Source of the DNA: a virus
Strand: one strand, 5' to 3'
DNA: 31,138 nt
Virus record (IMG/VR): IMGVR_UViG_3300022756_000064
Span: 1-31,138 of that record
Shown here piece after piece: positions 6,001 to 25,117 of the stretch. Below the pieces are notes generated by a model. That model was not told where the DNA came from. It made no database searches and saw only the letters and a list, made by a program, of their open reading frames with translations. The position numbers and the translations under genes were made by a program. How positions within the stretch are numbered: the first letter of the stretch is position 1; each line of letters begins with the position of its first letter.

Positions 6001-9000
6001 GCTTTATCCGGAGGCCGACGTGCAAATCACTGGCTTCCAAAACGCGGACATCGCCGATGGGTCAGTGGACCTGTCGATTTCAAATGTGCCTTTCGCGAAT
6101 GTGCCGGTCACGGACAAGGCGATGGAACTCTCCGGCGGGCCTACGGATAACCTGCACGATTATTTCCTGGCCAACATGATCAAGAAGTTGCGCCCCGGCG
6201 GATTAAACATCGCTATTACAAGCGCGTTCACGATGGACAAGGGCGCGAGCGAAAACCGAAAATGGATGGCAGACCGCGCGGACCTGGTAGCGGCGTTCCG
6301 GTTGCCGAACAACGCTTTCAAGGCCAATGCAGGCACGGATGTGGTGACTGATATTTTGGTGTTTCGCAAAAAAGATGGACAGATTTTTCCGCACGCGAAG
6401 GATTGGACGATGCTGGATAACGCTACGACACAAAAAGGCGATCCGATTCGGGTAAACCAATATTTCGCGCAGCATCCACAGGATATTCTTGGGTTCCTGG
6501 CAGACGACGGCGAGATGTTCGCGCACGGCGCCGGCGAAAAAGAGATGACGGTGCACGCGGACCCAAACCGGCCGCCTGCGGTGGCGCTGGAGCAAGCCAT
6601 TGACAATTTACCGAAGGACATCGCAGGCGACGGGAACGCGGCCGAAGTGCGCAGCAACGATCCGACCATCTCGAAGATGGGGAATATCGTGGAGAAAGAC
6701 GGCAAGTATTTCTTCCACGGGCAAGCGGAGCCGGACGAGGCGTTGAATGATCCTAAGAACGCGAAGCGAGTTCGAAAGTTTATTGAGACGCGCGACGTTT
6801 TGAATGAGCAGTACCGGCTGGAACTGGATCCGGAAGCGACCGACGAAGATGTTGAAGCTAATCGTCGGATGTTGAACGCGCGTTACGATTCGTTCACCGC
6901 CGATTTCAGTAATTTTCATACTCCGAAAAACAAAGGGCTATTCATTGACGATCCGGATTGGTTCCGGTTGGCCGGCGCGGAGACACCGATTCAGGTTTCA
7001 GGCGGCGTTAAAGAGATGTTGTCGATTTTGGACGGCAAAAAGAGCCGACAATTTACAAAGGCCGACGTGTTCAAGAAACGCGTGCTTACGCCGATCATTG
7101 AACCCACGAAAGCTGACAGTCTAGAAGACGCTTTCGGAATGAGTCTCGGTTGGCGCGGTCGCGTGGACCTTGGCTACATTTCGGATTTAACCGGCCAAAG
7201 CCGGGAACAAGTGGAACAAGGATTGGTCGCATCCGGCATCGTGGTGCGCGACCCAGAAAACGGGCAACTTCAATCTCGCGAGCAATACCTGGCTGGCAAT
7301 GTGCGTAAGAAACTCGACATCGCTAAAGCCGCAGGCCCGGATTACGAGCGCAACGCTCAAATGCTAGAGGCGGTTCAACCGGAGGACGTGCCAATCGACG
7401 AAATCCGGTTCAAGATCGGCGCGACATGGGTGCCAGTGGACGCTTACCAGCAATTCCTGAGCACGATCGGGATTGAGTTACCCATTGAATACCACACAGC
7501 TCTCGCCGGCGGGCGCGACTTTTACACCGTAGGCTTGCGTGATTACCGTGCGACCGGTGTAGCGCACAAAGATTTCAGGACAGACCAGGTGAGTGTGCCT
7601 GAGTTGATGGACTCGATGCTGAACATGAAGCGCATCGAGGTTCTCCACACCGACAAGGATCGAAAGGGTGATACCGATGAAGGCGCAACTATGGCGGCTA
7701 GGGATGCGGGTAAACGGTTGAGTGACGCTTTTGTGGCTTACGCGAAAGGCAATGCGGAGCTTGGTCCGCGGCTCGCGCAAATCTATAACCGCGAGGCGAA
7801 CGGGTTCGCGCAACGGACGTATGACGGACAATTCCTTACTCTCCCGTGGAAAAATAAGGATTTCGATCTTTTCCCCGACAAAAAGAACGTCATTTGGCGC
7901 GCGATACAAGATCGATATGCACTAATTGCGTGGGGCGTTGGCGGCGGCAAAACAGTGATTGCGGCCGGGATCGCGCTTGAATTGCGTCGCCTCAAACTAG
8001 CGTTAAAGCCGATGGTGGTGGTGCACAACTCCACGCTGGAGCAGTACGCCGACGAGATTGCGGTGATTGCGCCGAGCGCCCGGGTATTGATCGGACGCAA
8101 AGACGAACTCTCTGGCGCGAAACGGAAAGAGTTCCTGATGCGAATTGCTGCCGGCGACTGGGACGCGGTAGTTATCGCGCATAGCACCTTCGGATTGATC
8201 GAAGACGACCCAGTGTTTCAGACAAAACACATGGAATCGCTCGTGGACGAAGCGATGCAGAGTTTAACGGATCGCGGATACAACTCAGTCTCGGATGCCA
8301 AGAAATCGCGCGAACCCAGTGTGAAGCAACTAGTCAAGATGATCGAGCAGCTTGAGACGAAGATTCAGGCACTTTCCGAGCGAAAAACCGACACGGGCCT
8401 CTTGAATTTCCAACAACTCGGCGTGGACGCGCTGATCGTGGATGAAGTGCACAAGTTTAAGAAAATGCCGTTCTCGACCAAGCTGGACGTAAAAGGCATC
8501 GACAGCGGCATGAGCCAGCGCGGTTACGCCATGTTGCTCCGAGCCAGGTCAATTCAGGAGCGTAACGGCGGCAAAAACGTGTTCTCGATGACTGGCACGC
8601 CAGTCACGAATACGCTGGGGGAAATCTGGAACCAGGTAAGACTGGTGGCGCCGCATCTCCTGAAAGAATACGGCGTTGAAACGTTCGATCAATTCGTCAG
8701 CAAGTTTGCCGAGGTCGAGACGATCAGCGAAGCCGGCCCGAGCGGTGAACGCAAGATGGTGGAGCGCCTATCGAAGATCGTAAACCTGCCTGAGTGGTCC
8801 ACATTTTTCCGGCAAGCTGCCGACGTGAAACTGGGCGACGACATGGTGGTAAAGAATCGTCCGGGCATCAAAGGAGGCGGCGGACAACTGATCGCGCTGG
8901 AGCGCACACCTGGCACGGCCGCGTGGGTTAATTATATCCGCAACGTGCTCGAAGGGTTCAAAGAGCTAAAATACGACGATTTTAAGGATAATAAGAGCCT

Positions 9001-12000
9001 GTTTGCTGTGCCGGTGCAGGCTTACATCGCGAGCCGAGCCGCAGCGATCGACATTCGGTTGATCGAACCGCGCGCCAAAGATGAGTCGGGCAGTAAGGCT
9101 AACAGGGCGGTTCGCGGCATAATCAAACTCTATCGAGAGACCACGCCATACAACGGGACACAGGTGATCTTCTCCGACTCGTTCAACCAAGTCAAAACCA
9201 GTTTGTTTGATGCCGTGGTGCCACGGTCGAATCTCAACCTAGAGCTCGACCCCAGTAAACCGCCAGGAACGACATTTAATCTTTACGAAGACATCAAGGC
9301 GAAACTGATAGCTCTCGGCGTGCCGGCGGAAGAAATCGCGATTGTTGCCGACAAAGAATTTGATAATGCCAAGCGAAAAAAATCACTCTTCGAGGATGTG
9401 AATAAGGGCAAGGTTCGCATCGTGATGGGCAGCACGGAGAAACTCGGCACCGGCGTCAACATGCAGGAGCGGATGCTTGCGGCGTGGAACCTGGACGTTC
9501 CGTGGACAGCCGCAGGGTTAGAGCAACGCGACGGGCGCGTGTATCGGCAAGGCAATGTGCACGCGGAGATGGGCGTACCCGTGGAATTGACGCGGTTGGG
9601 AATGAAAGACACGCTGGATGAATCGCTCTGGAAAATTATTGAGCGCAAACTGCGGATCCAGAAACAGGCGTTAAGCGGTAAGATCGTGGGGCGCGAACTC
9701 GAAGAGATGAGCGATGTCCTGAGTCTCGCGGAGCAAGCCTCGATTTTAAGCGGCCCATACGGAGCCGAGAGTTTCGAGCTGGATAGCCGGATTCGGGAAT
9801 TAGAAGGGAGCCGGGCCGGGCACGACCGTCAAGTTGCAAACCGAGATTCGGAGATCAGGTCGTCGAAAGAATGGCTGCGCCAGCAGGAAGCCGAAGAGGC
9901 GCGGTCTGAGCCGGCGATGCAGTTAATGGCAAAACTCGGTGAGCGCGTCTCGAAAGACGGTGCTCAGATCACGGTAGATGGCGATTCGTTTGAGACTAAG
10001 ACGGCGATGGTGGAGCGTGTGAACGCGTTATTGGACGCGGAGAAAAACAAACCGACCAACGAAAAAAGCAAAGCCATTTTCTCAGTGGCGGTCAACGGCG
10101 TTCCGGTGCGGTTGGATGTTACTCCTACAGAATATGACGAATGGGATGTTGCGGGTGTAGAAAGCAAGAGGGTAACGAAACCGTCCGCGCAGTTCGATCT
10201 GATGGCGACGGATTCCAATAGCCCGAAATTCGGGCGCGTAACCAGCGCGGCGACGCTGTTGGCGCGCCTCGAGGAATTAAGCGGGACGGTGGACGGAATC
10301 AGGGAAGGCCGAAAGAATAACACGGCGCGATTACGGCAACTGGCCGAGATGCAGCAATTGGGTAAATGGCCGTTTAAAGAGGAATACCAGAGAGCACTTG
10401 CGCGACAGAAAGAGCTTTTGAAGCTGATGCGCGGGGAAGAACTCAAAAAAACAGGAGAAGGAGAAGAAACGCCGAACGCTCAACGCCCAACGCCCAACGC
10501 TCAACCGGCAGAATTGCGAGCACAGGCGACGGCGGATGCTGCCAAGACGCCGGCGGAACGGTTTAAGGATGCGTGGCCGTTGGCTGAATCGATTGCACGC
10601 TCGTATTCGAATATCCCCGGCGTGACGCTGAAGGACGTGGAGCAACATGCCCGGATTGCTCTGGTGCGCGCGGCGCGTGAGTTTGATCCTGCTCGCGGGG
10701 CCGCAATGGACACGTTTGCGCGCAAAGTGGTCGGGAATGAGTTGCGCAGTCTTTACGGCAGGCAGATGCGAACGGCGGGGCGGGAATCGACGGTGCTGGA
10801 TGTTCCCGTCTCCGCCGAAGGCTCTGCCGCGGTTTCACAAAAAGAAAACATCGTCGGGCCGAGCGATGTTCGGGCGGACGTGGCGCGGACTGAGGCGACA
10901 CAAATGCTTTCGACCGCGATTGACGAGTTGCCGGACAAAATGCGAGACGTGATGAATGGAATCTTGTCCGGGAAAGAGACGCTGGGCGAGATCGGGGAAC
11001 GGCTTGGCGGATTACCGAAACAAGCCGTAGGCCGGCTGGCGAGTGCGGCTATGCGCCGGTTGAAAGGGAAACTTGGTGAGAAAGGCGTTTCTGGTGTGAC
11101 GGATCTGTTGAGTCAGGAAACGACCACGGATAACACGGATACGGAGAAAAAGACGTTATCGGATTTCTTGGCGAAGCATGATGCGTCGAAGGGCACCGTT
11201 CCCGCTAAAAAGATAGCTGAGCCGACTAGGAGGAATGTTAAGTTAGCTGAGAAGCTCGGAAATCAATCAACGAGAGACTCGTCTGTTGTTCCTAATTTTC
11301 GGCCTGTGGAGCAGGAAATCGCGATTGGAAGGGCTTATGGCTACAGCGATAACGACATCGCAGCATACTTGCAGCGCAATTACGTGGATCGAATACCCGA
11401 ACGTGTTGCGCAAACGTCTGTAGGCGTTCGACCACCGCAGGAGCTAATTGACAAGTATCCAGAGTTAAAACACGCCATTAAAGTTTCCGAGAAATATGGG
11501 CATTTAGTGAAACTCAGCGAGCAACTGGAACTACTGAGTCAGGTCGTCGAGGATGAAGTGAAGCTGTCTGAATCGGCTGATCCGGTGGCGTCGTTCATGG
11601 AGCTTATGCGGGATGATCCGGTTGAGAAGTTGCGCGGTATAAAAGGCATTGGGCGGCCTGATCTGGCGCTGGGCGCGGAGCCTGCCATGCGGCCGGTGCA
11701 CGAGTTTCATACTGCCACGGCTACGCCGCAAAAACTGGATGATTGGGACAAACAAGGCGAAGCGATTTTGCGCAGCCGCGGCGACAAATTGCCAGCGGAT
11801 GTTACTAAACGTTGGCTGGATGGCTCAGTGCTCGAGCCCGCGGAAGTGCGCGCGACACAGCAATATCTCATCGAAAAACAGGGGCAACCGAAGACGCCAG
11901 AGGAACAACGCGGGTATGACGCGTTGGCGTACGCTTATACCAAGATCGGGGAAGCGACCGCACGGGCGTTGTCTGCGCGCCGTGATCCGTTCAAAACGCC

Positions 12001-14788
12001 GGAGGAGAGGAACCGTGAATTTATCGGGAAAGCTCTTGTGCATTTGTCGGCTACTGAAGATCGCGAACTGGACGCGATTGCCGATCACAAGGAGAAAGTG
12101 GCGCGCTTGGAGCAGATCGTTCAGGGGCGACGCACTCAGATCAACGCGGCGCTGGAGCATGTCGCCGGAAAGGGCGTGACGATTGACGATATTTTGTCCG
12201 GCGGCACGGAATTGCGGTTAAAAGGCGCCAAAATGATCGAGAATCAGATGGCGGGTTACGGCGAATCGGAAAAGAAAGTGATCAAGCTGGCGCAGACCGG
12301 GGCGCGCAGCGCTGCGGAGATTGCGAAAGCGACAGGGCTCAGCGTCAAACAGGTCAACGACATCAACGACCAGTTCGTATCCGATCTGGAAACGAAATTG
12401 ATGGCTAAGACTCGGGCCGGGGCGACGCTTGAGAATTTGGATGCGCAGCAGATTGCACTTTTGGCGCAGGAGACGGAACGGCGGCCAGGGGCCTCCGCTA
12501 CAGTATCCGAAGACGTTGCTCGCGCTGAGGCGCGAAAAATGATCAAGGCGATGGGGTTTGTGGCGAGCAAGGATTTGGGCACGATGAAAGTGGTTAGGCG
12601 GAAGCGATCGAAATTGTTTATTCCTCCTTCGCCAAGACCTGCGGCCGACACGGCCGCCCCTACACCTGGTGAGTTGCCTACGGGACAAGAGACGCAGGCT
12701 CCGATGATGTTTGGCGGTGAGCGCAGTCCGGTGGCGCCGCGCGAAGGTGAGTTGCCGCGTCCGGCAGGACAGCAAGCGCCTTACACCGGACGCGTGCTGG
12801 GGCAGATCGGGTTGCCGCTTTATCAGGAAATGATGATTCGTAAAGGAGCGGACATGAGTGAGCCGACTGACGTGGCGCGGCTTGGGAACGTGATTCACGC
12901 GGCAACGAGCGGGAACGCGTTCGACATGGTTTATGAAGCGTGGATTAACAACATTCTTTCGGGGCCGGCTACGCACATGGCGAACATTACCGGCAACGCG
13001 GTCTCTACGGCGTGGGATTTTAGTTTACAACGCGGTTTGGAGTCGTTGGTGAACCTGGCTTATCGCGACGCGGATTCGGCGCAGCTCGGGGAGTTTAAGC
13101 ATATCGTGAACGGCATTGTGCCGGGGTTGCGTCGCGGGTTGTCGATCGCGGTCAAGGCGTGGGGCGCAGAAGCCGATTTCTTCCGGAACGACGTGCTCAA
13201 TGAGCAGGTGGAAATGTTCCAGGACTTCGAGAAAGGATCAGGCGGCGCTCTTGGTCCTGCTATTCCCGGCCGGACCGGACGCGTGATCAGGATGCCGGGA
13301 CGCGCGCTGATGTTCATGGACGCGGCGTTCAAGGGGTTAATCGGGCAAATGGAAGCAGGCGCGGTCGCGTATCGGATCGCGAAGCGCGAAGGGTTGACCG
13401 GCGACGCGATGGCCACGCGTATGAACGAACTGGTCGCCACACCGAACAGCGAAGCGTGGCAGCGCGCAGTGGATAAAGCTGTAAACCTCACGTTCCAAGA
13501 TCAGATGCGAACCAAAGAAGAGGGCGGCAACCCGTTTGAGAACGCCGTTGCGCGGTTTAACCAGATGCGGACCGGCAGCCATTTGCTGGGGTTCTTTTTC
13601 CCGTTTATCCGGACGCCATACAACATTTTCAAGATGGGCCTGCGCAAAACGCCATTGGGCAGCGCGAACATGGCCTGGCGCTTTTCGAAAGCGGGTTTTT
13701 ACCGGTTCAAGGATGGCAAGCCGATGTTCGAAAGCTACGATAAAGGCGAGCAGGTGAGGCATTTGGCGGAGCAATTGATCGCATGGGCGACGTTCGCTGC
13801 GCTCTGGGCGGCGACGACCGGCGATGATGACGATGACAAAAAAGCGTTGCTCTTTACCGGGTCCACGCCGGTAACGGAAGTAAGGCGCAGTGAACGCGAG
13901 TTGAGGACGCGGTTGCACGGCGGGCAGTACCAGATTCGGGTAGGCGGCCGCAACGGTGTTTACATCAATTACGGGCGTTATGAGCCGTTCGCGACGGTGA
14001 TCGGGACTGTGGTGGACGCGATTACGAACCTCAAAAAGATCAAGCGCGGCCAGACGCTCGGTGAAAGTCTGGACGCGATGTACGGTTATTTTCTGGCACA
14101 GGCGAAATCGAAAACGTTTTTACAGGGGTTTGCCGAGATTGCGGACTCGCTCGAGAGCGGCGGTGGCGTTAGGGGTGGCATCACTGAGGCGGGCAAAAAG
14201 ATGTTGTTAAGCGCGCTAGTGCCGAATCTCGTCAGGCAACCGTTACGCAACCTCGATGAATGGGTGCGCGACACGAAAGGCGCTGCACCCATTTACCAGA
14301 TGCTTCCCGCGGGTTCGTTAGCGGAAAGGAAAGCTGATCTGTGGGGGCGCGACGTGCAAAAGAGCGGAAACATCTTCAGCAGGTTATTCCTGGCGACCGG
14401 GACAAAGGTTGAGCCGGACGCGCAAAAGGTAGATTTGCTGTTGCAGAATTGGGTTCATCAAAACCCGGGTGGGGCGCGCGAATTGAGCGTGCCGTCGAGC
14501 GCGATCAACAGGACGTACAAGGACGCGATCGGTAAAGAAGCGCAAATGACACCCGAGCAGTTTCACCGGTTTACGGTGGACTCCGGGAAACTGGCGCTAA
14601 CTCGGTTACGGGGGAAATTCACGCAACGTCAGATCGATCATCCGAAGGCGGAAGATGTGAAGATGATTCGGGGCGCGCTGGAAGATGCGCGGCGTGAAGT
14701 GAAAGAGCGGATGTTTCCGGCGGGACCACGCGGCTTCGGGCATCCACGGCAGGCGATTAACTTACGCGAAGTGATGTGGGCCGCATGA
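2..14788 (+). CDS. Giant polyvalent phage protein (DarB-like methyltransferase-helicase with extra domains), 5' partial
   Basis: This reading frame has no stop from base 2 to the TGA at 14786-14788, so at least ~4930 residues are encoded and the true start lies left of the window. The ATG at 206 is only the first in-frame ATG, and residue numbers here count from it. Domain order: Gly/Ala-rich hydrophobic N-terminal stretches, degenerate zincin (~461), DdrB/ParB-like (~680-1090), short helix-turn-helix-like stretch (~1140-1180), RelA/SpoT-like (~1216-1336), adenine methyltransferase (~1712-2060), SNF2-type helicase (~2560-3190), sigma-70-like (~3451-3631), virion-type C-terminus (~4200-4860). 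Giant proteins mixing such effectors are known as polyvalent proteins of phages and conjugative elements, and P1 DarB is a co-injected relative of the methyltransferase-helicase part. Co-injection here is inferred. Linkers are low-complexity and several carry dispersed repeats. The next gene overlaps the stop (ATGA). Confidence 0.93.
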   Translation, partial: DDATALKAGVLGGTINALLAIPFEGFGKALTETFGSAKQSAIQKALKESYERGGAEAVANDLTILRNSMIKTAGRSAFQKTAVDALQPIIEEITKTPLQRAGQVGIEVLKDSALFAGVQAAQNAVTKTYNPDTGLFENVPTAAFEGGVLGAFFGGLRQVGRAQKAGAAREEIATGLAKQARAGEVQPMGVERALPETGVTEGPTETHEQASRNAGVSPVEGVDEAGQGPGPIEQAHGEINNLVVPDVSPAVNTATQHALRGLIKIANGESMEALTTAEKAAVNAKTTDGLPRVVMVKRADGKQQPVITDATLERIRQIAPVTAQVMPQSEGEQRQRILNPVEEITPESGSVEKGEIQPNKKTPEISQPSFEVAIERPSGEVETRTVQAASAEAAKGQVAGSISPGQGMVRDVSEVPQAMSGFVPLDEGQKMDTATALSDEMVGQVREQAGRELQPEEEQAVRGIAERVTPAIEKFRGAFSSIQATLEPRGSMGAFTTIPEGKLVLSLPDIVRHAQEWGEPEGPDLVVEQEAIHAVADQLHQQGKIDPEGIARDMPAELREHVAGVYNPDVPMEERNDLEDGHEFLRLLVQHQLRVDEGKVVDADGKVITENLSPGFIARIRQALVRLFEVFRDMAKRLGEMGAKPEYVEQVQKARDLIVTRLREVDAGSRGAYETTNGGKTAQVKGKGGKAPAERSVEGELRVEPKPTAGQGQVAGAGVGGAVGQPHGVMSAATKTLTGQAGSGAGAELTSKEIAQAAIAIGAPRDKITKPWWDKVGNKHVLSQGGRSVNVAYVAQEASKGRTSHDALGNASSGYDLSLQPRDRSLAQYRKQSQNIAQNLDFAQAAFFPETTTPATTGDIGAPVMTPTGDTLIGNGREIGIKAAYAANSPQARAYKRDFVHNAARFGIDPAAVMKMRQPVLKRVILDDLPKDELIRLSQESNEGVAMGVNATEIANRDATRLTPEILSEFDPNYALDAAKNRGFLRSYLQNVVSGAGANEANINWPDLARRVRAAVFTYAYGADEAGRAALERLQGEDSSRKITDGLLTVAPIVARMKADIASGDLFPLDISPEIARAVQDISEALRDRPKGQSASVALDGLVAQGELIPAGDAPALQQSVRDFVIANRGNRAAIEEALSNYVESVYEIGNPKQPNLFGEQAGEESDRTQLWNLATKPEAIAPKTEQRELAAQALRSRMSEDRGQLTPLDHVIHRKLRAGKSVETVAKEHGMKVEHVERTYDRVNRSQEIRTLLSQQTFRSETDAFAAAEKAKPSFDQTLEDVAKATGARAMTTPIKSRERAAAKVAADYRGDWSKIKDLVRGTIVVRDLDQAKAVVGALAQRFGVEPKRDFNQPLQSGYRDALFNPIINGYVAEIQVHIEPIIHAKSTSHTFYKRHQEIQRAAQVENRALNSQELRTIERLNMAQQRIYAAAFGNISGEISSTASEGLQGKAPTDLISSGVIGRGESPSKAQAVPSLSTTIPKPAGASMKDLASGKAAIASSSVIPPSLTPTGGVRHQEVLLAQKLKDTGTLDLFGDYVGALPAAAKASKPALKREVEKDVPSLAESGAALSNLFELAQPGKTYEVSNPVQFPKVLSATRYSDSTVAKVAHNYVTHQTEYGYRVELEDGRQWIGSAKNRDAAITKAQYEFRKTLTEAPAAGIPQANEDAVRKTARANRKAKVGTETATGVDDLFSLLAEQHGSERDTGLAGGVVQDAIGAPGRTDVAGAGDLPGHETDAGRPGGSVTAGDTDGGRGLAEPTDTGGNAAPSETGGKRTLPKLVSRPADPNARNYVIPRDTKEIAPRGAMAKLRANQDAIKLLKQIETEQRLATPEEKSQLVKYSGWGALSQAFDDAKADRIAAGEISELNTELQRYRGYQERNRESSYYSGEIGRLEKDIRSLESWQSKWGDIHSELKSMLTPDEYKRAMRSTINAHYTSPEMIKSMWDIAAHLGFKGGNVLEPGAGIGHFFGLMPEELLSRSSLHAVELDDISGRLTKMLYPEADVQITGFQNADIADGSVDLSISNVPFANVPVTDKAMELSGGPTDNLHDYFLANMIKKLRPGGLNIAITSAFTMDKGASENRKWMADRADLVAAFRLPNNAFKANAGTDVVTDILVFRKKDGQIFPHAKDWTMLDNATTQKGDPIRVNQYFAQHPQDILGFLADDGEMFAHGAGEKEMTVHADPNRPPAVALEQAIDNLPKDIAGDGNAAEVRSNDPTISKMGNIVEKDGKYFFHGQAEPDEALNDPKNAKRVRKFIETRDVLNEQYRLELDPEATDEDVEANRRMLNARYDSFTADFSNFHTPKNKGLFIDDPDWFRLAGAETPIQVSGGVKEMLSILDGKKSRQFTKADVFKKRVLTPIIEPTKADSLEDAFGMSLGWRGRVDLGYISDLTGQSREQVEQGLVASGIVVRDPENGQLQSREQYLAGNVRKKLDIAKAAGPDYERNAQMLEAVQPEDVPIDEIRFKIGATWVPVDAYQQFLSTIGIELPIEYHTALAGGRDFYTVGLRDYRATGVAHKDFRTDQVSVPELMDSMLNMKRIEVLHTDKDRKGDTDEGATMAARDAGKRLSDAFVAYAKGNAELGPRLAQIYNREANGFAQRTYDGQFLTLPWKNKDFDLFPDKKNVIWRAIQDRYALIAWGVGGGKTVIAAGIALELRRLKLALKPMVVVHNSTLEQYADEIAVIAPSARVLIGRKDELSGAKRKEFLMRIAAGDWDAVVIAHSTFGLIEDDPVFQTKHMESLVDEAMQSLTDRGYNSVSDAKKSREPSVKQLVKMIEQLETKIQALSERKTDTGLLNFQQLGVDALIVDEVHKFKKMPFSTKLDVKGIDSGMSQRGYAMLLRARSIQERNGGKNVFSMTGTPVTNTLGEIWNQVRLVAPHLLKEYGVETFDQFVSKFAEVETISEAGPSGERKMVERLSKIVNLPEWSTFFRQAADVKLGDDMVVKNRPGIKGGGGQLIALERTPGTAAWVNYIRNVLEGFKELKYDDFKDNKSLFAVPVQAYIASRAAAIDIRLIEPRAKDESGSKANRAVRGIIKLYRETTPYNGTQVIFSDSFNQVKTSLFDAVVPRSNLNLELDPSKPPGTTFNLYEDIKAKLIALGVPAEEIAIVADKEFDNAKRKKSLFEDVNKGKVRIVMGSTEKLGTGVNMQERMLAAWNLDVPWTAAGLEQRDGRVYRQGNVHAEMGVPVELTRLGMKDTLDESLWKIIERKLRIQKQALSGKIVGRELEEMSDVLSLAEQASILSGPYGAESFELDSRIRELEGSRAGHDRQVANRDSEIRSSKEWLRQQEAEEARSEPAMQLMAKLGERVSKDGAQITVDGDSFETKTAMVERVNALLDAEKNKPTNEKSKAIFSVAVNGVPVRLDVTPTEYDEWDVAGVESKRVTKPSAQFDLMATDSNSPKFGRVTSAATLLARLEELSGTVDGIREGRKNNTARLRQLAEMQQLGKWPFKEEYQRALARQKELLKLMRGEELKKTGEGEETPNAQRPTPNAQPAELRAQATADAAKTPAERFKDAWPLAESIARSYSNIPGVTLKDVEQHARIALVRAAREFDPARGAAMDTFARKVVGNELRSLYGRQMRTAGRESTVLDVPVSAEGSAAVSQKENIVGPSDVRADVARTEATQMLSTAIDELPDKMRDVMNGILSGKETLGEIGERLGGLPKQAVGRLASAAMRRLKGKLGEKGVSGVTDLLSQETTTDNTDTEKKTLSDFLAKHDASKGTVPAKKIAEPTRRNVKLAEKLGNQSTRDSSVVPNFRPVEQEIAIGRAYGYSDNDIAAYLQRNYVDRIPERVAQTSVGVRPPQELIDKYPELKHAIKVSEKYGHLVKLSEQLELLSQVVEDEVKLSESADPVASFMELMRDDPVEKLRGIKGIGRPDLALGAEPAMRPVHEFHTATATPQKLDDWDKQGEAILRSRGDKLPADVTKRWLDGSVLEPAEVRATQQYLIEKQGQPKTPEEQRGYDALAYAYTKIGEATARALSARRDPFKTPEERNREFIGKALVHLSATEDRELDAIADHKEKVARLEQIVQGRRTQINAALEHVAGKGVTIDDILSGGTELRLKGAKMIENQMAGYGESEKKVIKLAQTGARSAAEIAKATGLSVKQVNDINDQFVSDLETKLMAKTRAGATLENLDAQQIALLAQETERRPGASATVSEDVARAEARKMIKAMGFVASKDLGTMKVVRRKRSKLFIPPSPRPAADTAAPTPGELPTGQETQAPMMFGGERSPVAPREGELPRPAGQQAPYTGRVLGQIGLPLYQEMMIRKGADMSEPTDVARLGNVIHAATSGNAFDMVYEAWINNILSGPATHMANITGNAVSTAWDFSLQRGLESLVNLAYRDADSAQLGEFKHIVNGIVPGLRRGLSIAVKAWGAEADFFRNDVLNEQVEMFQDFEKGSGGALGPAIPGRTGRVIRMPGRALMFMDAAFKGLIGQMEAGAVAYRIAKREGLTGDAMATRMNELVATPNSEAWQRAVDKAVNLTFQDQMRTKEEGGNPFENAVARFNQMRTGSHLLGFFFPFIRTPYNIFKMGLRKTPLGSANMAWRFSKAGFYRFKDGKPMFESYDKGEQVRHLAEQLIAWATFAALWAATTGDDDDDKKALLFTGSTPVTEVRRSERELRTRLHGGQYQIRVGGRNGVYINYGRYEPFATVIGTVVDAITNLKKIKRGQTLGESLDAMYGYFLAQAKSKTFLQGFAEIADSLESGGGVRGGITEAGKKMLLSALVPNLVRQPLRNLDEWVRDTKGAAPIYQMLPAGSLAERKADLWGRDVQKSGNIFSRLFLATGTKVEPDAQKVDLLLQNWVHQNPGGARELSVPSSAINRTYKDAIGKEAQMTPEQFHRFTVDSGKLALTRLRGKFTQRQIDHPKAEDVKMIRGALEDARREVKERMFPAGPRGFGHPRQAINLREVMWAA
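1520..1840 (+). other. Domain: degenerate zincin-like metallopeptidase segment in the giant protein
   Basis: The stretch VVEQEAIHAVADQL (coded at ~1577-1618) resembles the HExxH helix of zincin metallopeptidases that occur in phage polyvalent proteins, but the first zinc-binding His is Gln (QEAIH, 1586-1600). A later helix with HEFLRLLVQH may correspond to the downstream Glu region. If the alignment is right the site is probably inactive or altered. The assignment rests on one motif and is tentative. Confidence 0.4.
2240..3480 (+). other. Domain: DdrB-like ParB-superfamily region in the giant protein
   Basis: The segment from about 2240 to 3480 includes TPTGDTLIGNGREIGIKAAY around residue 806 (GNGRE at 2621-2635), which matches the ParB-type 'GNxR' signature as seen in DdrB-like domains of P1-type defence proteins. 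It is followed by SQESNEGVAMGVNATEIANR and a helical tail. ParB-superfamily folds include nucleases and CTPases; which activity applies here cannot be read from the sequence. In polyvalent proteins this domain commonly sits N-terminal to the methyltransferase-helicase, as here. A hairpin repeat at 3331-3349 is inserted in frame near its end. Confidence 0.7.
3331..3349. repeat. In-frame hairpin repeat (GGCAGGCG-ACG-CGCCTGCC)
   Basis: A perfect 8-bp stem with a 3-base loop, followed by CTAC, lies in the giant gene and reads IPAGDAPALQQ. It looks like a dispersed hairpin repeat of the kind that occurs in many copies in some large bacterial genomes, inserted without breaking the frame. Confidence 0.6.
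3583..3612 (+). repeat. In-frame dispersed repeat, CAGAAGTCGGATGTCAGAGG type
   Basis: The segment is built of GTCGGATGTCAGAGGACAGAGG-like short units and encodes LRSRMSEDRGQL in the linker after the DdrB-like domain. A related series (CAGTCCTCAGTCCTCGGTC, reversed type) appears in the portal-like gene at 18947-18974. Confidence 0.55.
3850..4215 (+). other. Domain: RelA/SpoT-like nucleotidyltransferase fold in the giant protein
   Basis: Residues ~1216-1336 show the order of elements of the RelA/SpoT synthetase fold: a basic TTPIKSRERAAAKV helix, DLVRGTIVV (compare D-x-x-G-x-R), then SGYRDALFNP (compare GYRSxH), and YVAEIQVHIEPI (compare vEIQIRT). The spacing of about 120 residues fits a minimal synthetase-like domain, and I recall similar domains in phage and toxin polyproteins. 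The GYRDAL segment lacks the canonical S-x-H, so alarmone synthesis is not assured; pyrophosphokinase, RNA-modifying or inactive forms are possible. A helix-turn-helix-like stretch (~3618-3750) precedes it. Confidence 0.7.
5001..5348 (+). CDS. Possible nested gene in the +1 frame inside the giant gene
   Basis: A 115-residue frame with ATG at 5001 and TAG at 5346-5348 lies wholly inside the giant gene, shifted +1. I do not recognise its family. Its product is acidic and amphipathic (for example DELTWRVLAIYLDTKQTPDD and LTPEETQRLVKLAE) and reads like a folded helical protein. The giant protein over the same bases is a Gly/Thr/Asp-rich linker. By hand count of the last ~60 codons, about 78% end in G or C in this frame against about 34% in the giant frame, so the nested frame carries the codon signature. 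CAGG lies just before the ATG. Either it is a true overlapping gene, or an older gene was absorbed out of frame as a linker between the RelA-like and methyltransferase parts. Confidence 0.45.
   Translation: MKTQFEKPPELTEKRRLALRQQPEWMTCFRSWLNSTDPSEIRDWLGGSYKTLLEHLDELTWRVLAIYLDTKQTPDDLAEALRQEIPMEDEDSQNPLTPEETQRLVKLAESAHFPS
5340..9800 (+). other. Domains: DarB-type adenine methyltransferase fused to SNF2-type helicase
   Basis: The module opens with RNYVIPRDTKEIAPRG and a KYSGWGALSQAF stretch typical of DarB-like proteins. S-adenosylmethionine motif I is LEPGAGIGHF (5885-5914) and the catalytic motif IV is NVPF (6083-6094), the variant usual in this family. The helicase shows Walker A GVGGGKT (7934-7954), a DEVH box (8441-8452), motif III TGTP (8591-8602), and motifs V-VI with GTGVNMQ and QRDGRVYRQG (near 9521-9553). 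All catalytic motifs are intact. Relatives protect incoming phage or plasmid DNA from type I restriction; this role is known for P1 DarB and inferred here. Confidence 0.92.
10468..10505 (+). repeat. In-frame CCAACGCTCAA-type repeat before the sigma-like domain
   Basis: Four to five AACGCYSAACGCY-like units read TPNAQRPTPNAQP in the giant protein. The same family occurs at 18809-18841 and 28371-28409 inside genes and at 21225-21258, 26733-26766 and 27229-27255 between genes. Confidence 0.75.
10550..11096 (+). other. Domain: sigma-70-like region 2 and region 4 inside the giant protein
   Basis: Residues ~3451-3631 match a small sigma factor. Region 2-like: AWPLAESIARSYSNIPG, then LKDVEQHARIALVRAAREFD (compare eDLvQeg..gLlrAverFD), PARGAAMDTFARKVVGNELR and a basic tail. 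Region 4-like: AIDELPDKMRDVMNGIL, ETLGEIGERLGG, and KQAVGRLASAAMRRLKGKL, which is the helix-turn-helix with the usual rAlrrLr ending. About 60 residues join the two. Sigma factors direct RNA polymerase to promoters; a sigma fold embedded in a virion-type polyprotein is unusual. It is bounded on both sides by dispersed repeats (10468-10505 and 11123-11152), suggesting domain insertion. Confidence 0.8.
11123..11152 (+). repeat. In-frame ACCACGGAT-type repeat after the sigma-like domain
   Basis: ACCACGGATAACACGGATAC reads TTDNTDTEKK in the giant protein, directly after sigma-like region 4. Related copies are at 15698-15727, 23718-23765 and 23945-23977. Confidence 0.75.
12641..12657. repeat. In-frame hairpin repeat (GCGGCCG-ACA-CGGCCGC)
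   Basis: A perfect 7-bp stem with an ACA loop followed by CCCTAC reads RPAADTAAPTPGE in the linker before the virion-type C-terminal region. It resembles the 3331-3349 hairpin in plan (GC stem, ACR loop, then a CCCTAC tail). Confidence 0.6.
12800..14788 (+). other. Domain: C-terminal virion-type region of the giant protein
   Basis: The last ~660 residues contain NNILSGPATHMANITGNAV near the start, and HLLGFFFPFIRTPYNIFKMG followed by LRKTPLGS in the middle. This signature recurs, from memory, at the C-termini of large phage polyvalent or internal virion proteins. One hydrophobic helix (LAEQLIAWATFAALWAATTG) is followed by a DDDDDKK run. The region probably anchors the protein in the virion or helps membrane passage during DNA entry. 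No enzymatic motif is visible. Confidence 0.6.
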
Positions 14789-15757: not shown

Positions 15758-16507
15758 TTGAATGAGCTACATCTATTTGCAGGAGCAGGGGGAGGAATCC
15801 TTGGCGGAATCCTTCTCGGACATACCTGCGTGTGTGCTGTCGAGATTGAACCTTATTGCCGACAGGTATTACTCCAACGGCAACGGGACGGAATCTTGCC
15901 AAAGTTCCCGATCTGGGATGATGTCCGAACTTTCGATGGAAAACCGTGGCGAGGGAAAGTCGATGTCGTCTGCGGTGGCTTCCCCTGCCAAGACATCAGC
16001 GAGGCTGGCACGCGACGAGGAATATGTGGCCATCGAAGCTCCCTATGGATCGAAATGGCGCGTATTGTCCGAGAAATTAAACCGCGTTTCGTGTTCATCG
16101 AAAACAGCCGGAGAATTATTCAGTCAGGAATGGGAAGAGTTCTCAGCGACTTGGCCCAAATGGGGTATGATGCGCGCTGGGGTCTTGTGGGAGCATCCAG
16201 CGCCGGTGCTCCGCAAGGGCGGGAAAGGTTCTGGATGGTGGCCGACTCCAACGGCTTCGGATTCGATCCGCTGCCGGAAATGGCCGGAGTGGTTGGCTCG
16301 CCATCGGGACAAGCAACATTCACATGGAACGGGAGGAGCGTCGGGTATCTTCGAGGTCGCAGCCAGCGAGTTTTCCCGGCTACCGAAAGTGACTTTCTCG
16401 GAGTGGCTGAACGGCATCCCAGAGAAATGGTTGAACCATTCCGAGCCTCTGGAAATCTACAAGTTCCGGCAGTGGTTAAACTCGCTTGGGAGACACTAGC
16501 AGCATGA
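15758..16507 (+). CDS. DNA (cytosine-5-)-methyltransferase
   Basis: The 249-residue product transfers a methyl group from S-adenosylmethionine to C5 of cytosine. Motif I is FAGAGGG (7-13), motif IV GGFPCQDIS with catalytic Cys77, motif VI ENS (115-117; usually ENV), motif VIII QGRERFW (153-159), and the motif IX/X-like GNLQVPAVV sits near residue 232. All core motifs are in order and it is likely active. It is short: the target-recognition zone (~165-228) is small and unlike typical ones. The start is TTG at 15758, since the nearby ATG at 15762 opens another frame that is itself well preserved. It ends in an ATGA overlap with the next gene. Probable role: protecting phage DNA from host restriction. 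Confidence 0.92.
   Translation: MNELHLFAGAGGGILGGILLGHTCVCAVEIEPYCRQVLLQRQRDGILPKFPIWDDVRTFDGKPWRGKVDVVCGGFPCQDISEAGTRRGICGHRSSLWIEMARIVREIKPRFVFIENSRRIIQSGMGRVLSDLAQMGYDARWGLVGASSAGAPQGRERFWMVADSNGFGFDPLPEMAGVVGSPSGQATFTWNGRSVGYLRGRSQRVFPATESDFLGVAERHPREMVEPFRASGNLQVPAVVKLAWETLAA
15762..16499 (+). CDS. Overlapping +1-frame gene nested in the cytosine methyltransferase
   Basis: A 245-residue frame runs from ATG 15762 to TAG 16497-16499, wholly inside the methyltransferase gene. Its middle and end carry a pattern I associate with a phage protein family found beside methyltransferases: a WRVLSEKLNRVSCSSKTAG stretch, FSATWPKWGMMRAGVLWEHP, GWWPTPTASDS, then TFSEWLNGIPEKWL and KFRQWL at the C-terminus (compare 'WPrsGmmrnG', 'PTPTasd' and 'WvEWLMGfPiGWT'). 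Function is unknown. TWPKWGMMRA is the +1 reading of the methyltransferase's DLAQMGYDAR, so the two families may be related by overprinting. It has the better start codon. Expression is unproven. Confidence 0.6.
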   Translation: MSYIYLQEQGEESLAESFSDIPACVLSRLNLIADRYYSNGNGTESCQSSRSGMMSELSMENRGEGKSMSSAVASPAKTSARLARDEEYVAIEAPYGSKWRVLSEKLNRVSCSSKTAGELFSQEWEEFSATWPKWGMMRAGVLWEHPAPVLRKGGKGSGWWPTPTASDSIRCRKWPEWLARHRDKQHSHGTGGASGIFEVAASEFSRLPKVTFSEWLNGIPEKWLNHSEPLEIYKFRQWLNSLGRH

Positions 16508-17795: not shown

Positions 17796-18030
17796 AACGC
17801 ACACACAAACCGAAAACGAAACGACTAGCAGCTTTCAGAAAGGCTACTTCAACGTCGTGGCTGGCATGGCGTGCATTTTAATTTCGATAATAAACATCGT
17901 TCAAGACAAAGCACCTGAATGGATGGTGCTGGGGGTTTTGGCTGGCCTATTCAGCATCTTGGCCGCGCCAGTAATTAGACGCGCGATAGCTCAACAACTC
18001 CGGGTGATCGCGAATTGGTTAAACTGCTAA
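17785..18030 (+). CDS. Two-helix membrane protein, holin-like
   Basis: An 81-residue product starting at ATG 17785, chosen because it overlaps the preceding stop; starts at 17758 and 17773 are also possible. After a polar N-terminus (TIETHTQTENETTSS) come two membrane segments, YFNVVAGMACILISIINIV (~21-40) and MVLGVLAGLFSILAAPVI (~48-65), then a basic amphipathic tail (RRAIAQQLRVIANWL). Holins and membrane-associated phage proteins share this layout, but no specific family can be named. It directly precedes the portal-like gene. Confidence 0.6.
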   Translation: MTIETHTQTENETTSSFQKGYFNVVAGMACILISIINIVQDKAPEWMVLGVLAGLFSILAAPVIRRAIAQQLRVIANWLNC

Positions 18031-18032
18031 CA

Positions 18033-20414
18033 ATGGCTACTCAAAACGATAAATCGCAGACGCAACAGTTCGTGGATCGGTTGCCGGAAACGCCACAGGA
18101 CGAGGAGCAGGCTAATAAGCCGCGGATGCCGTTCAAGACTTCGTATGTGCTTGATCGCCTTCAGGAAGATGAATTGTGCCGGTATGTGTCGGACGCGGTG
18201 GAGCAGATGTCGAAACAGCTCGGGCGCGATGATGTGCTCGATGACGCGAGCGCGGGCAGCGGTGCGTGGGGCCAGGGCGTTGCGCCGGGGAAGATCCGGA
18301 AACGCGGCGGCGCTTCCAAGGTTGAAAGTTGGATGGGGAAACGGGCGCGATACACTGCGCGTTACGAGAATAATGTGGATGATCGGGTTGAACCGAAAAC
18401 GCTTTTTGAGCACTCGAATCTTACGGCGTCGTTGTCGCAGCGGATTGTACGACAGATGGTGGCTCGGGCTGTGGCGTTCTTTTTCGGGCAACCGGATGAC
18501 ACTGATTGGTTCACCACTGAAGCGGTGGGCGAAGAGGACCAGGTACTGGCGGACAAGATTAAGAAACATTCCAGGTGGAAAGTGGACCAGTGCCAATCGA
18601 AAAAGACTTTGGTCAACTCATTTGAGTATGCCTTTGTGCGCGGCGAGGCGGTGGTGAAACCGACGCATCAACAGCGGTTCCAGATTTACAAGCGGACTTC
18701 GACGATTTTGGTGGACGCGCAAGGTCAGCCGGTGCTCGATGCGAACGGAGATTACATTGTGCAGGGAGACGCGTTTGTGGATGAAATGGCTCCAGCGGAG
18801 CCGGACCAACTTCCAACGTCCAACGCTCAACTCTCAACGCCAAATGAAGAGGCTCAGGGGATAACGCCAGATGTTGAAATGGGAGAGCCTCCGGTTCTCT
18901 TTGGCAGCGGGATGGGAATGGTAAACGAAGGCGGGATTCCGAACGTCAGTCCTCAGTCCTCGGTCATCGGTCCTCCGCCTGCTCAGCCTACTGAGCGACA
19001 GGTGCTTAAGCGCGACGGGGTGACGGTGCTGCCGGAAGTGCCGATATGGCAGCAGCAGGAGATCGCCCGGAAACTGATCAAGTTCGAAGGGCCGGATACG
19101 TCGCTGGTGTATTACAAGGATTTTTTGTGCGGGCTCGCGGAACCGGATATTCAGACTGCGCCGATCATTTGTCATCTCTACGACATGGATCTGATGCGGG
19201 TGGCGCAGATGTTTTCGGGCCAATTCGAGGAAGGCGACGGCGGTATAGCTGATTTTGCGGCGGCGGTGCAACGCTTAAAAGACCTGGCAGCGAACACGAA
19301 TCAGCCAAAAGCGGCTGCGAAAAAGCCGAGGCGCGAGAAAAAGGAACAGGAAACGGACGCGCCTGATGGAGTGGCGGTCAGCGAATTTGCGGAGTGCTGG
19401 TTGACTTACAGTAAAGACGGCGACGGGATGAACGACGAGATACTGGTGATTCTCGATCGCAGAAATAAGGCGCCGATTTATTACGAATACGCGGCGAACG
19501 TGACGGTGCGCGGTGATCGCCCGTTTTACGTGGTTCGTCCAATGAACGTGGACGGTCGCTGGTGGGGCATGGGCGGGATGGAGTATTTCGATTCCGAACA
19601 GGAACCGATAGATCTGATGGTGAACCGTCACAATTTCGCGACTGGCAAGAGTGGCCGGGTAACGTTCTGGCGTCCGTATAACACGCTGGAAGGCGACGCG
19701 AACCCGAACCTGATATTGAACGATGGGGGCACCTACACGCCAAAGCCCGGAATGAAAGATGAAGACGTGCTTTCCTACGTCACGCTGCCGTATGACAGCG
19801 AGCGGTTTGAGTTTCTTCTCAATTTTTACATGCAACTAGAGCAGACCAAGAGCGGGGTGCTCAATAGCGCGGACCAGGAAATGAGCGGGCTCCCGAGCAA
19901 CCAGCTTGCGACCGGGATCAACGAGATACGCGATAGCGGGCAGGAACTGTTTTCTCTGATGTTAATGGAACTTTTCGCTTCGGTAAAAGCGATCTTGCTG
20001 GCGACGATTGACATTATCTACGCCAACATGAACAAGACCGAAGTGTTCAGTTATTTCAACGGGGAAGCGAACGAGATTTTGCAGTTGACCCCGGATGAAG
20101 TGCGCGATCTGACGTTGAACGTGGCGTTGTCGTTGACCAGAAGCCAAAAGAGTAAAGCGGTGGAGATGGGTCAAAACGCCACGGGTTTGATTGGATGGTT
20201 TTATGGGTTGCCGCCGGAGTTGCAGTTGCGCGTGGCGCAATTTGCCAGGAACCAGCTAAAGGCGTTCGGCGTGCCACAGGCGGATAAGGTGATTGAGCCG
20301 GTGCCGCCGATGGTGCCGCCCGATGGGGGAATGAACGGCAGCGTAAAAGACGAGGCGTCTCGCGCGGCTGAAAGCGTGGGTGTCGGGCGTGTGAGGGCTG
20401 TTCCGGCGATATGA
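18033..20414 (+). CDS. Portal-like protein
   Basis: The 793-residue product starts at ATG 18033; a TTG at 18015 is an unlikely alternative. Its size, acidic/basic helical layout and the core segment GDRPFYVVRPMNVDGRWWGM and GGMEYFDSEQEPIDLMVN match phage portal proteins, whose central part often reads 'PF...g.wyG.G....l...Q..ln.l.n'. The portal forms the ring through which DNA is packaged and ejected and docks terminase. Residues ~255-330 are a non-conserved insertion containing two dispersed repeats (LPTSNAQLSTPNEEAQ and VSPQSSVIGPPPAQP). The C-terminus is disordered and Pro-rich. Position before scaffold and capsid genes fits the usual phage order. The stop overlaps the next gene (ATGA). 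No terminase gene is in the window. Confidence 0.75.
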   Translation: MATQNDKSQTQQFVDRLPETPQDEEQANKPRMPFKTSYVLDRLQEDELCRYVSDAVEQMSKQLGRDDVLDDASAGSGAWGQGVAPGKIRKRGGASKVESWMGKRARYTARYENNVDDRVEPKTLFEHSNLTASLSQRIVRQMVARAVAFFFGQPDDTDWFTTEAVGEEDQVLADKIKKHSRWKVDQCQSKKTLVNSFEYAFVRGEAVVKPTHQQRFQIYKRTSTILVDAQGQPVLDANGDYIVQGDAFVDEMAPAEPDQLPTSNAQLSTPNEEAQGITPDVEMGEPPVLFGSGMGMVNEGGIPNVSPQSSVIGPPPAQPTERQVLKRDGVTVLPEVPIWQQQEIARKLIKFEGPDTSLVYYKDFLCGLAEPDIQTAPIICHLYDMDLMRVAQMFSGQFEEGDGGIADFAAAVQRLKDLAANTNQPKAAAKKPRREKKEQETDAPDGVAVSEFAECWLTYSKDGDGMNDEILVILDRRNKAPIYYEYAANVTVRGDRPFYVVRPMNVDGRWWGMGGMEYFDSEQEPIDLMVNRHNFATGKSGRVTFWRPYNTLEGDANPNLILNDGGTYTPKPGMKDEDVLSYVTLPYDSERFEFLLNFYMQLEQTKSGVLNSADQEMSGLPSNQLATGINEIRDSGQELFSLMLMELFASVKAILLATIDIIYANMNKTEVFSYFNGEANEILQLTPDEVRDLTLNVALSLTRSQKSKAVEMGQNATGLIGWFYGLPPELQLRVAQFARNQLKAFGVPQADKVIEPVPPMVPPDGGMNGSVKDEASRAAESVGVGRVRAVPAI
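18809..18841 (+). repeat. In-frame CCAACGCTCAA-type repeat in the portal-like gene
   Basis: ACTTCCAACGTCCAACGCTC and following units read LPTSNAQLSTPNEE, in the same translated frame (NAQ) as the copies at 10468 and 28371. Confidence 0.75.
18947..18974 (+). repeat. In-frame CAGTCCTCAGTCCTCGG-type repeat in the portal-like gene
   Basis: Short GTCCTCAGTCCTCGGTCATC units read VSPQSSVIGPPP. It is the reverse-complement type of the 3583-3612 repeat and lies ~105 bases after another repeat in the same insertion. Confidence 0.6.
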
Positions 20415-23765: not shown

Positions 23766-23969
23766 GGATTTTGGTTTAGGAACACCGAGTAGGCTGTTTT
23801 GTTGGATAGGGATCGCTTCTGGATGCTCACGCCGATCAACAATATTTCCGTTCGACAGACACCCGCCAAAACCAGCTTTGACTACCTCGCGGATCTTACA
23901 CAAAGCATCCACCTTGGGTTGATCTTCGGGTCTGATCGCCTTCAGAGATTCGTGTTTATTCGTGTCCAT
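23730..23969 (-). CDS. Small phage protein whose start and stop lie in repeats
   Basis: The 79-residue product has a central part (VDALCKIREVVKAGFGGCLS, NGNIVDRREHPEAIPIQQNS, LLGVPKPK) that looks conserved; I recall similar 'GGCxxNGxIVDRRexPeAvPIpaNslLGVPxP' proteins in phages but no function. The first eight residues (MDTNKHES) and about the last twelve are translated from two copies of an ACGAATGGACAC-type repeat. Start ATG 23969 lies 14 bases inside the upstream glycosyltransferase gene, so coupling is likely. The core may bind or bridge structural proteins; this is a guess. Confidence 0.6.
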   Translation of the reverse strand: MDTNKHESLKAIRPEDQPKVDALCKIREVVKAGFGGCLSNGNIVDRREHPEAIPIQQNSLLGVPKPKSVPSGKSAIRVN

Positions 23970-23977
23970 TCGTGGTT
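23945..23977 (-). repeat. ACCACGAATGGACACGAATA repeat spanning a gene junction
   Basis: On the minus strand this one repeat codes the last six residues (TTNGHE) and the TAA stop of the glycosyltransferase and, in another frame, the ATG and first codons (MDTNKHE) of the next gene. Confidence 0.85.
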
Positions 23978-25062
23978 TTCTTTAAGAGGTCTGCCCACCA
24001 AGGCCAGCAGGCATCGGGGTTGCCGTGGCCTGTGGTGACGAGCTGCGCGTAAGCCTGGCTGGCGATGGCGCGCCGCATGTTTGGGTAAAAGGCCAGTTCG
24101 CTGGCGCGGAAAGCGGCTTCATCGGGTGAATCGACCAGAAAACCGGTTTCTTTGTCGGTGATCAGTTCTTTGGCGCCGCCGCGGTTATCGGCTATGACCA
24201 CTACGCCGGCAGCCTGCGCTTCGAGCATAATGCGACCCAAAGCTTCTTCCCATTGGTAATCGCACACGTGCACAAGCACATGGCTACGGGCGTAAAGCTC
24301 CGACAGCGTTTGGCTGTCGTGTATGTGCTGGTGCAACGTGACGTTGAGTTCGTTGTGCCATTTACAGGAATTATCGGTTGCCGTTGGGTCGCCTACTTTT
24401 GCGGCGGCTTCCGGGCCGAACCCGGCAATTTCGATCTGGACGCTGGCGCCCGCGGGCGCGGTGACACCGCAAAACATGCGCCACGTGTCGGGATGCCATT
24501 TATCGGGGTCGTCCCGGCAGATTTTCAGGGCGCGAAATGTTTTGTCGTCGCGCTCGGTTCTGAAACGCAGTGGCAGATAGCGGCTTTTGGTGTTGATGAA
24601 AGCTTTGTAACCTGAGCGGGCTTTAACGGCTTTATGAGCGCGCCGGGCGATGATGGGGCCGAGTTTGTCTGCCAACGCGCGGCTTTGAAAAAAAAACTCG
24701 TCGATTAAGCCTTCCCGGTGCGCGGCGATCTCGTCGTCGGTGGCGTAGTGCATACAATCGGAGTAAACGAAATAACCGGGGCGATCGTTATTTTCCCGGA
24801 TGAGCGGGAACAGGCGGACGCCTTCACCGAAAGACATGAGGACCTGGCACTCTTTGAACATGCCCGGTGTGTACTGAACCAGTGTTACGCCAAGTTTGTC
24901 CCGGAGATAATCGGCAGCGGGGTTGCCGTGGTCAATGATCGGATCGCCCGGCGGCACGATCATGCGCACAGGGACTTTGCGCGAGCGCAATAGCTCGATG
25001 GCGCCTAATATCTCGGTGCCGCAGCCGCCGCATTGGTGGACGATGCCGAAGAAGTTGATCAT
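23956..25062 (-). CDS. GT-B glycosyltransferase (GT4-like)
   Basis: The 368-residue product (ATG 25062) begins MINFFGIVHQCGGCGTEILG, a Rossmann-like start with a Gly-rich loop. The C-terminal domain has EEALGRIMLEAQAAGVVVIA at ~272-291, then DNRGGAKELITDKETGFLVD, the classic donor-nucleotide site (E-x7-E) of group 1 / GT4 glycosyltransferases. It should transfer a sugar from a nucleotide sugar. A longer product from TTG 25137 is possible, but its extra 25 residues (including LRPAKPWQSR) come from a repeat. It lies just downstream of the Ser-rich repeat gene, the obvious candidate acceptor; DNA glucosylation is an alternative. An intragenic copy of the GACAGCG hairpin lies at 24302-24318. Confidence 0.85.
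   Translation of the reverse strand: MINFFGIVHQCGGCGTEILGAIELLRSRKVPVRMIVPPGDPIIDHGNPAADYLRDKLGVTLVQYTPGMFKECQVLMSFGEGVRLFPLIRENNDRPGYFVYSDCMHYATDDEIAAHREGLIDEFFFQSRALADKLGPIIARRAHKAVKARSGYKAFINTKSRYLPLRFRTERDDKTFRALKICRDDPDKWHPDTWRMFCGVTAPAGASVQIEIAGFGPEAAAKVGDPTATDNSCKWHNELNVTLHQHIHDSQTLSELYARSHVLVHVCDYQWEEALGRIMLEAQAAGVVVIADNRGGAKELITDKETGFLVDSPDEAAFRASELAFYPNMRRAIASQAYAQLVTTGHGNPDACWPWWADLLKKTTNGHE
24302..24318. repeat. Intragenic copy of the GACAGCG hairpin
   Basis: GACAGCGTTTGGCTGTC, followed by GTGTATG, differs by one base from copy 6 (GACAGCGTTTCGCTGTC then GTGATATG). On the minus strand it codes DSQTLS in the glycosyltransferase. Unlike the other copies it precedes no gene in its plus-strand orientation. 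Confidence 0.6.
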
Positions 25063-25098
25063 CCTGCTTTGCCAAGGCTTCGCAGGACGAAGGAGATC
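25063..25098 (-). repeat. Hairpin repeat abutting the glycosyltransferase start codon
   Basis: On the minus strand TCCTGC...GCAGGA form a 6-bp stem with GCC/GGC inside, and the final A of GCAGGA is the A of the ATG at 25062. A similar hairpin precedes the capsid gene (29402-29423). It could hide or replace a ribosome-binding site; no other clear one is present. Confidence 0.6.
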
Positions 25099-25117
25099 GT
25101 CCAATGTTGAATTAAGA

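Follow-up and report, generated by a model that had tools for sequence, protein, structure and literature searches.

The small-subunit gene of the C5 methyltransferase M.EcoHK31I lies inside the large-subunit gene in another reading frame. M.EcoHK31I is composed of two polypeptides and acts on the site YGGCCR (Lee, Kam and Shaw 1995, cited in PMC3404938). In the summary given in PMC3404938, its large polypeptide contains motifs I-VIII and X together with the predicted target-recognition domain (TRD), and its small polypeptide contains motif IX only. M.AquI (CYCGRG) appears in the same summary as a two-polypeptide C5 methyltransferase that is split between motifs I-VIII and motifs IX-X (PMC3404938). 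C5 methyltransferases made of two polypeptides, the smaller of which contains motif IX, are already known.

Here we analyzed a locus in IMG/VR virus record IMGVR_UViG_3300022756_000064. The window, which is the whole stretch of DNA that was analyzed, covers positions 1 to 31,138 of that record. The locus contains two overlapping ORFs on the same strand, a C5 methyltransferase in frame 0 and an inner ORF in the +1 frame. The inner ORF starts 4 bases 3' of the methyltransferase start, ends 8 bases before the methyltransferase stop, and is thus nested in the frame-0 gene, spanning 245 of its 249 codons (Table 1). The coordinates, start codons and both offsets in the original prediction were exact, and so was its reading of TWPKWGMMRA as the +1 translation of the bases that encode DLAQMGYDAR (nt 16148-16178). 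The three +1 signatures that it named (WPKWGMMRAG, WPTPTASD and EWLNGIPEKW) are all present in the inner ORF.

Table 1. Positions of the two reading frames and their sequence elements in the window
Feature	Position	Strand	Details
C5 cytosine methyltransferase, frame 0 (proposed alpha subunit, motifs I-VIII + X)	15758..16507	+	TTG...TGA, 249 aa
+1-frame ORF (proposed beta subunit)	15762..16499	+	ATG...TAG, 245 aa
Paired start site TTGAATGAGCTA, frame-0 start followed 4 bases on by the +1 ATG	15758..15769	+	
Frame 0 motif I FAGAGGG (AdoMet binding)	15776..15796	+	sequence; PF00145 match
MSSAVASPAKTS, +1 reading	15963-15998	+	partly covers the frame 0 motif IV stretch
Frame 0 motif IV GGFPCQDIS (catalytic Cys)	15974..16000	+	sequence
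Frame 0 motif VI FIENS	16094..16108	+	sequence
+1 core motif WPKWGMMRAG, over frame 0 DLAQMGYDAR	16152..16181	+	third bases fixed in homologues
Frame 0 motif VIII GAPQGRERFW	16205..16234	+	sequence
+1 WPTPTASD element of the variable, repeat-bearing zone (proposed part of target recognition)	16239..16262	+	
+1 motif-IX-like segment FSEWLNGIPEKW	16395..16430	+	family consensus LNPxWxEWLMGWPxGWT
EWLNGIPEKW, +1 frame, within the FSEWLNGIPEKW segment	16401-16430	+	
Frame 0 motif X ASGNLQVPAVV	16445..16477	+	sequence; family frame-0 C-terminus aligns to canonical motif X

The frame-0 protein is a member of PF00145 (E 1.7e-35; 123.4 bits against a curated cut-off of 22), in which motifs I, IV (PCQ), VI (EN) and VIII are all readable. 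The PF00145 match is limited to residues 3-166, and the match to M.HhaI in the PDB comparison to residues 4-167. The target-recognition and C-terminal zone of the methyltransferase is thus short, as had been noticed from the sequence. The frame-0 protein also matches phrog_363 (E 2.2e-58), and the +1 protein matches phrog_1008 (E 4.4e-15).

We likened the locus to M.EcoHK31I by the described motif distribution: frame 0 encodes motifs I-VIII and X, and a motif-IX-like segment is found in the second chain. As in M.EcoHK31I, the second gene is nested in another frame, and this arrangement, in which the +1 motif-IX-like segment lies over the frame-0 motif X, was kept in 303 of the 323 copies of the +1 C-terminal segment that were placed in phages, viral contigs, plasmids and the genomes of bacteria and a few archaea. 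On the other hand, the second ORF of the window covers nearly the whole gene and starts 4 bases after the first, and the window holds a phage orphan locus at which a restriction gene was not identified. A domain scan of ten ORFs of the window, which include only one close neighbour of the pair, gave no nuclease domain.

The split of M.AquI, motifs I-VIII followed by motifs IX-X, is seen in some relatives (L170, L172, L267 and L280) and in mycobacteriophage Firecracker, where by inspection motifs I-VIII are in gp6 and the +1 core is in gp5 together with motifs IX and X. Only 7 of the 323 copies (L037, L055, L170, L172, L181, L267 and L280) have motif X behind motif IX within the +1 ORF, as in the small polypeptide of M.AquI. 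The window locus differs from the M.AquI type in its nearly complete overlap and in having motif X encoded by frame 0.

The inner ORF has been recorded before in Paenibacillus phage Diva (DIVA_49/DIVA_50, KP296791), where it was deposited as 'g49 internal gene' of a DNA-cytosine methyltransferase and belongs to phrog_1008 (E 1.1e-73). For Diva, the record goes no further than the presence of the internal ORF, and the literature searched gave no function or family-wide pattern. PHROG lists phrog_363 and phrog_1008 as separate families without mention of a shared gene. Our literature search, which covered few subscription journals, found no paper on the phage overlap. The near-complete overlap, the selected starts 4 bases apart, the spread over the phages of multiple phyla and the movement of motifs between frames look new.

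The 80 homologous loci in which we counted stop codons were gathered with the methyltransferase frame as the only query, which put no selection on an open +1 frame. These loci contained 11 +1 stops, while 347 were expected when synonymous codons were shuffled within each gene. All 11 stops sit near the 3' end, and the +1 frame is open across the entire gene in 72 of the 80 loci. The +2 frame of the same loci contained 1146 stops (1053 expected). Among 32 diverged representatives (below 70% amino acid identity, with the last 60 nt ignored), there were 0 +1 stops against 121.6 expected. The ordinary C5 methyltransferases of Enterobacteriaceae, which served as a control, contained 208 +1 stops against 229 expected. 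In the window gene alone we found 0 +1 stops against 3.2 expected, and 1 of 200 synonymous shuffles was stop-free. The original prediction had named many +1 stops in homologous genes as evidence against itself, and such stops are largely missing.

Synonymous change was then analyzed in a codon alignment of 137 non-redundant genes, in which the third base of a four-fold site is the second base of a +1 codon. The four-fold sites hardly varied beneath the +1 segments 'SWKT', 'WPKWGMM' and 'EWLMGWPxGW'. Across homologues, Val114 was GTG in 101/101, Ala133 was GCC in 99/99, Gly136 was GGG in 135/136, and Ala217 was GCC in 109/111; the fixation of the Ala133 and Gly136 codons indicates that their third bases are set by the +1 frame. 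The entropy of four-fold third bases dropped from near 1.9 bits to about 0-0.6 bits at many codons in 112-145 and 207-239; around codons 70-110, many third bases were near saturation. The position 3/1 ratio of codon changes was 2.0-3.0 in codons 1-110, 1.4-1.5 in codons 111-150 and 1.0 in codons 201-245, while canonical dcm had ratios of 2.2-6.9 throughout and 4.8 around motifs IX-X. Constraint on the N-terminal third of the +1 protein is weak. The reduced synonymous change looked for in the original prediction was therefore present, with nearly fixed four-fold sites and a position 3/1 ratio down to 1.0.

When the window +1 protein was compared with a family profile built without it, the score was 254.7 bits, against 154.5 +/- 10.0 bits (maximum 177.9) for synonymous shuffles. 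Much of the +1 similarity is thus a shadow of the methyltransferase, and the excess of about 100 bits, or about 10 standard deviations, is not. An origin purely by chance or codon bias was rejected on the basis of the synonymous shuffles and the canonical C5 methyltransferase controls. On this sequence evidence, the locus is dual coding with selection on both frames, and the prediction of two protein families in overlapping frames agrees with both the stop depletion and the frozen four-fold sites.

The C-terminus of the +1 protein family (LNPxWxEWLMGWPxGWT) has the pattern and the position of canonical C5 motif IX, RRLTPRECARLMGF, and frame 0 is without motif IX. Profile alignment put the +1 C-terminus on canonical RRLTPRECARLMGF in exact register with a weak score (E 0.045, in one comparison), and the frame-0 C-terminus of the family aligned only to canonical motif X (hhalign E 3e-4). 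The putative motif IX is assigned from its pattern, its order and the natural fusions. Besides the 303 copies with the typical overlap and the 7 with motifs IX and X in the +1 ORF, motif IX was in the +1 frame with motif X undetected in 6/323 and non-overlapping in 1/323, and motif IX shared an ORF with motifs I-VIII in 3/323. The +2 relation found in 3/323 (L055, L327 and L328) probably reflects indels. Gordonia phage Gudmit and its relatives have all of motifs I-X in a single frame, and their +1 frame retains WPxxGMxRxG and PTP elements. Together with Firecracker, such natural fusions and splits suggested that the +1 segment and the methyltransferase are parts of one machine.

The window segment FSEWLNGIPEKW departs from the family at three positions that hardly vary in it (LNG in place of LMG, I in place of W and V in place of P), and the window motif X (GNLQVP) likewise departs from the family. 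This copy could therefore be decaying, weakened or divergent. Though divergent, its motif-IX segment scored well above shuffles (40.6, against a mean of 0 and a maximum of 19.7).

We also compared predicted structures. In L365, an actinophage-like single-frame relative, the frame-0 zone 165-288 under the +1 PTP elements was predicted to be disordered, the motif IX-X end folded confidently (pLDDT about 90), and Foldseek aligned mainly the catalytic domain of the model to M.HhaI. The AlphaFold model of the +1 protein alone had a pLDDT of 57 and a pTM of 0.28 and no fold match in the PDB, and the +1 sequence profile had no convincing match in the PDB.

Because the motifs in the window appear to be distributed as in M.EcoHK31I, we propose a split C5 methyltransferase in which the +1 protein, its gene nested over the full length of the alpha gene, is the beta subunit; we consider this likely. 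Alpha, encoded in frame 0, would contribute the AdoMet-binding and catalytic motifs I-VIII plus motif X. Beta would initiate at its own start codon 4 bases downstream and would supply the motif-IX-like segment. The variable PTP-rich part of target recognition would probably also be carried by beta; PTP elements are conserved in homologues and vary in number. The summary in PMC3404938 puts the predicted TRD of M.EcoHK31I in the large subunit, so the TRD role of the +1 PTP zone is a guess. Alpha and beta would assemble as one enzyme, as in M.EcoHK31I, and the enzyme would methylate the phage DNA and probably guard it against host restriction. The translation of beta, its binding to alpha, its need for activity and the protective role are all inferred.

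The +1 ORF might instead encode a separate protein with its own function, for instance one that counters defence or regulates the methyltransferase, rather than a catalytic subunit. The +1 protein matched no Pfam or NCBIfam family in profile searches, its N-terminal two thirds are unlike any methyltransferase part, its AlphaFold model is of low confidence, and the ORF is selected as a protein with a start of its own, all of which such a protein would fit. However, the +1 ORF was never found without the methyltransferase in the 323 placed copies, its C-terminus corresponds to motif IX in pattern and order, and several phages have it joined to motif X in one ORF or have the whole enzyme in one frame. 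We therefore regard a separate protein as unlikely.

The start of the +1 ORF bears on how the second chain would be made. The start context nTGAATGAG is nearly invariant in the family. In 205 distinct genes, the codon 4 bases past the first aligned frame-0 codon was ATG in 175, GTG in 13 and TTG in 1. A +1 ATG requires that Asn2 of the methyltransferase be encoded by AAT, and AAT was used in 173/174 genes, while only 31% of the Asn codons elsewhere in the same genes were AAT. This bias indicates that the +1 start codon is under selection, which points to a separately initiated +1 polypeptide rather than frameshifting.

Programmed ribosomal frameshifting would yield one chimeric methyltransferase, with no initiation of the +1 ORF alone. 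We consider it highly unlikely: the frame-0 ORF does end after motif VIII with the remainder in the +1 frame in L170, L267, L373 and Firecracker, but a late frameshift needs neither the selected +1 start nor a +1 frame that is open from its own start, and Firecracker gp5 retains the conserved overlapped part upstream of the gp6 end. Since the typical locus divides motif IX (+1 frame) from motif X (frame 0), a single shift could not yield a complete enzyme.

The pair was present in viral contigs, phages, plasmid records, bacterial genomes and archaeal MAGs. The phage carriers infect Vibrio, Acinetobacter, Stenotrophomonas, Bacteroides, Porphyromonas, Synechococcus, Microcystis, Mycobacterium, Gordonia and Paenibacillus, and the genome carriers include Pseudomonas, Acinetobacter, Pantoea, Burkholderia, Verrucomicrobia, Planctomycetes and archaeal MAGs. 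Among Enterobacteriaceae, 24 of 392 genomes contained the pair. In distant clades (L123, L125 and L203), the +1 frame is open only from motif IV on. Hundreds of related phages and bacteria have the same second gene, and usually one of the two is annotated: the inner ORF alone in Vibrio phage 1.236.O and Virus Rctr197k, where the methyltransferase is in the other frame; the methyltransferase alone in Vibrio phage 1.003.O; and a DNA cytosine methyltransferase only in the RefSeq annotation of two E. coli regions.

The original prediction had assigned the +1 motifs to a stand-alone phage family, which may have been born by overprinting on the methyltransferase and then moved out. The family is real, as the phrog_1008 match shows, and some records annotate the inner ORF alone; its stand-alone status was not supported. 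Nearly all of the 323 placed copies were out-of-frame ORFs over a methyltransferase, and none lacked methyltransferase motifs I-VIII nearby, so neither the departure from the methyltransferase nor independent homologues outside methyltransferase genes were borne out. No stand-alone family was found in viral contigs, phages, plasmids, genome contigs or the 392 Enterobacteriaceae genomes, in searches that were seeded with the family itself and would thus miss a strongly diverged copy. The records that look stand-alone hold the methyltransferase in the other frame and reflect an annotation choice of one frame. Birth by overprinting was not supported either: the resemblance of the +1 C-terminus to canonical motif IX speaks against wholly new sequence, and for that stretch the +1 frame may be the older reading. 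To a stand-alone family of this origin we give almost no weight. Least credible of all is that the open +1 frame and the apparent family merely follow from codon usage and from the conservation of methyltransferase residues. More than half of the +1 profile score does survive synonymous shuffling, but stop depletion and frozen four-fold sites refute such a by-product as the sole explanation, and the preference for AAT at codon 2, the excess of about 10 s.d. of the real scores over those of shuffles and the lack of such signals in canonical genes also stand against it.

The split-enzyme reading can be extended from this locus to a very widespread, mostly unannotated class of methyltransferases in which both subunits come from two frames of one gene, with selected, near-coincident starts, the variable part of target recognition in the +1 frame, and conserved motifs (IX, X and the PTP zone) that have repeatedly moved between frames across the phages of many bacterial phyla. 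We hold the chances of this wider claim to be evenly balanced. If it is true, hundreds of phage cytosine methyltransferases annotated as complete are missing a subunit in the databases, the annotated ORF cloned alone would give an inactive or altered enzyme, and these genes would be some of the longest and best-conserved phage genes that encode two proteins on the same strand. A dual-coding gene with a simple methylation readout would also make the cost and origin of overlapping genes directly testable.

Several relatives have rearranged loci. In L037 (2306-2846), an insert with a CxxC/HNH-like homing-endonuclease reading breaks the methyltransferase before motif IV; 3' of the insert, frame 0 decays, and the +1 ORF is open and bears motifs IX and X. 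In L204 (Mycobacterium phage Seabastian), a frame change past codon ~122 splits the methyltransferase and the +1 ORF together into gp75 and gp76, both annotated as 'DNA methylase'. In L055, the +1 ORF is open 505 nt past the methyltransferase end, and motif X shares the ORF with motif IX. In L167 (2925-3829), the frames are swapped near the 3' end, so that frame 0 encodes motif IX and the third frame encodes motif X, which is either a real variant or a one-base assembly error. Among L364-L376 (actinophages and relatives), most of the one-frame methyltransferases have PTP repeats in frame 0, +1 or both, and most have a short open +1 stretch with WPxxGMxRxG over motifs VII-VIII.

Other genes of the window were also identified. 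A single ORF of 4860 aa (206-14788, + strand) matches a ddrB-like ParB domain, helicase (ResIII/SNF2/Helicase_C) and sigma-70 region 2/4, and by these matches is a giant DarB/Ddr-like polyvalent phage protein. An SU10-like portal protein is encoded at 18015-20414 (+ strand), and a glycosyltransferase group 1 gene lies on the opposite strand at 23956-25137 (- strand).
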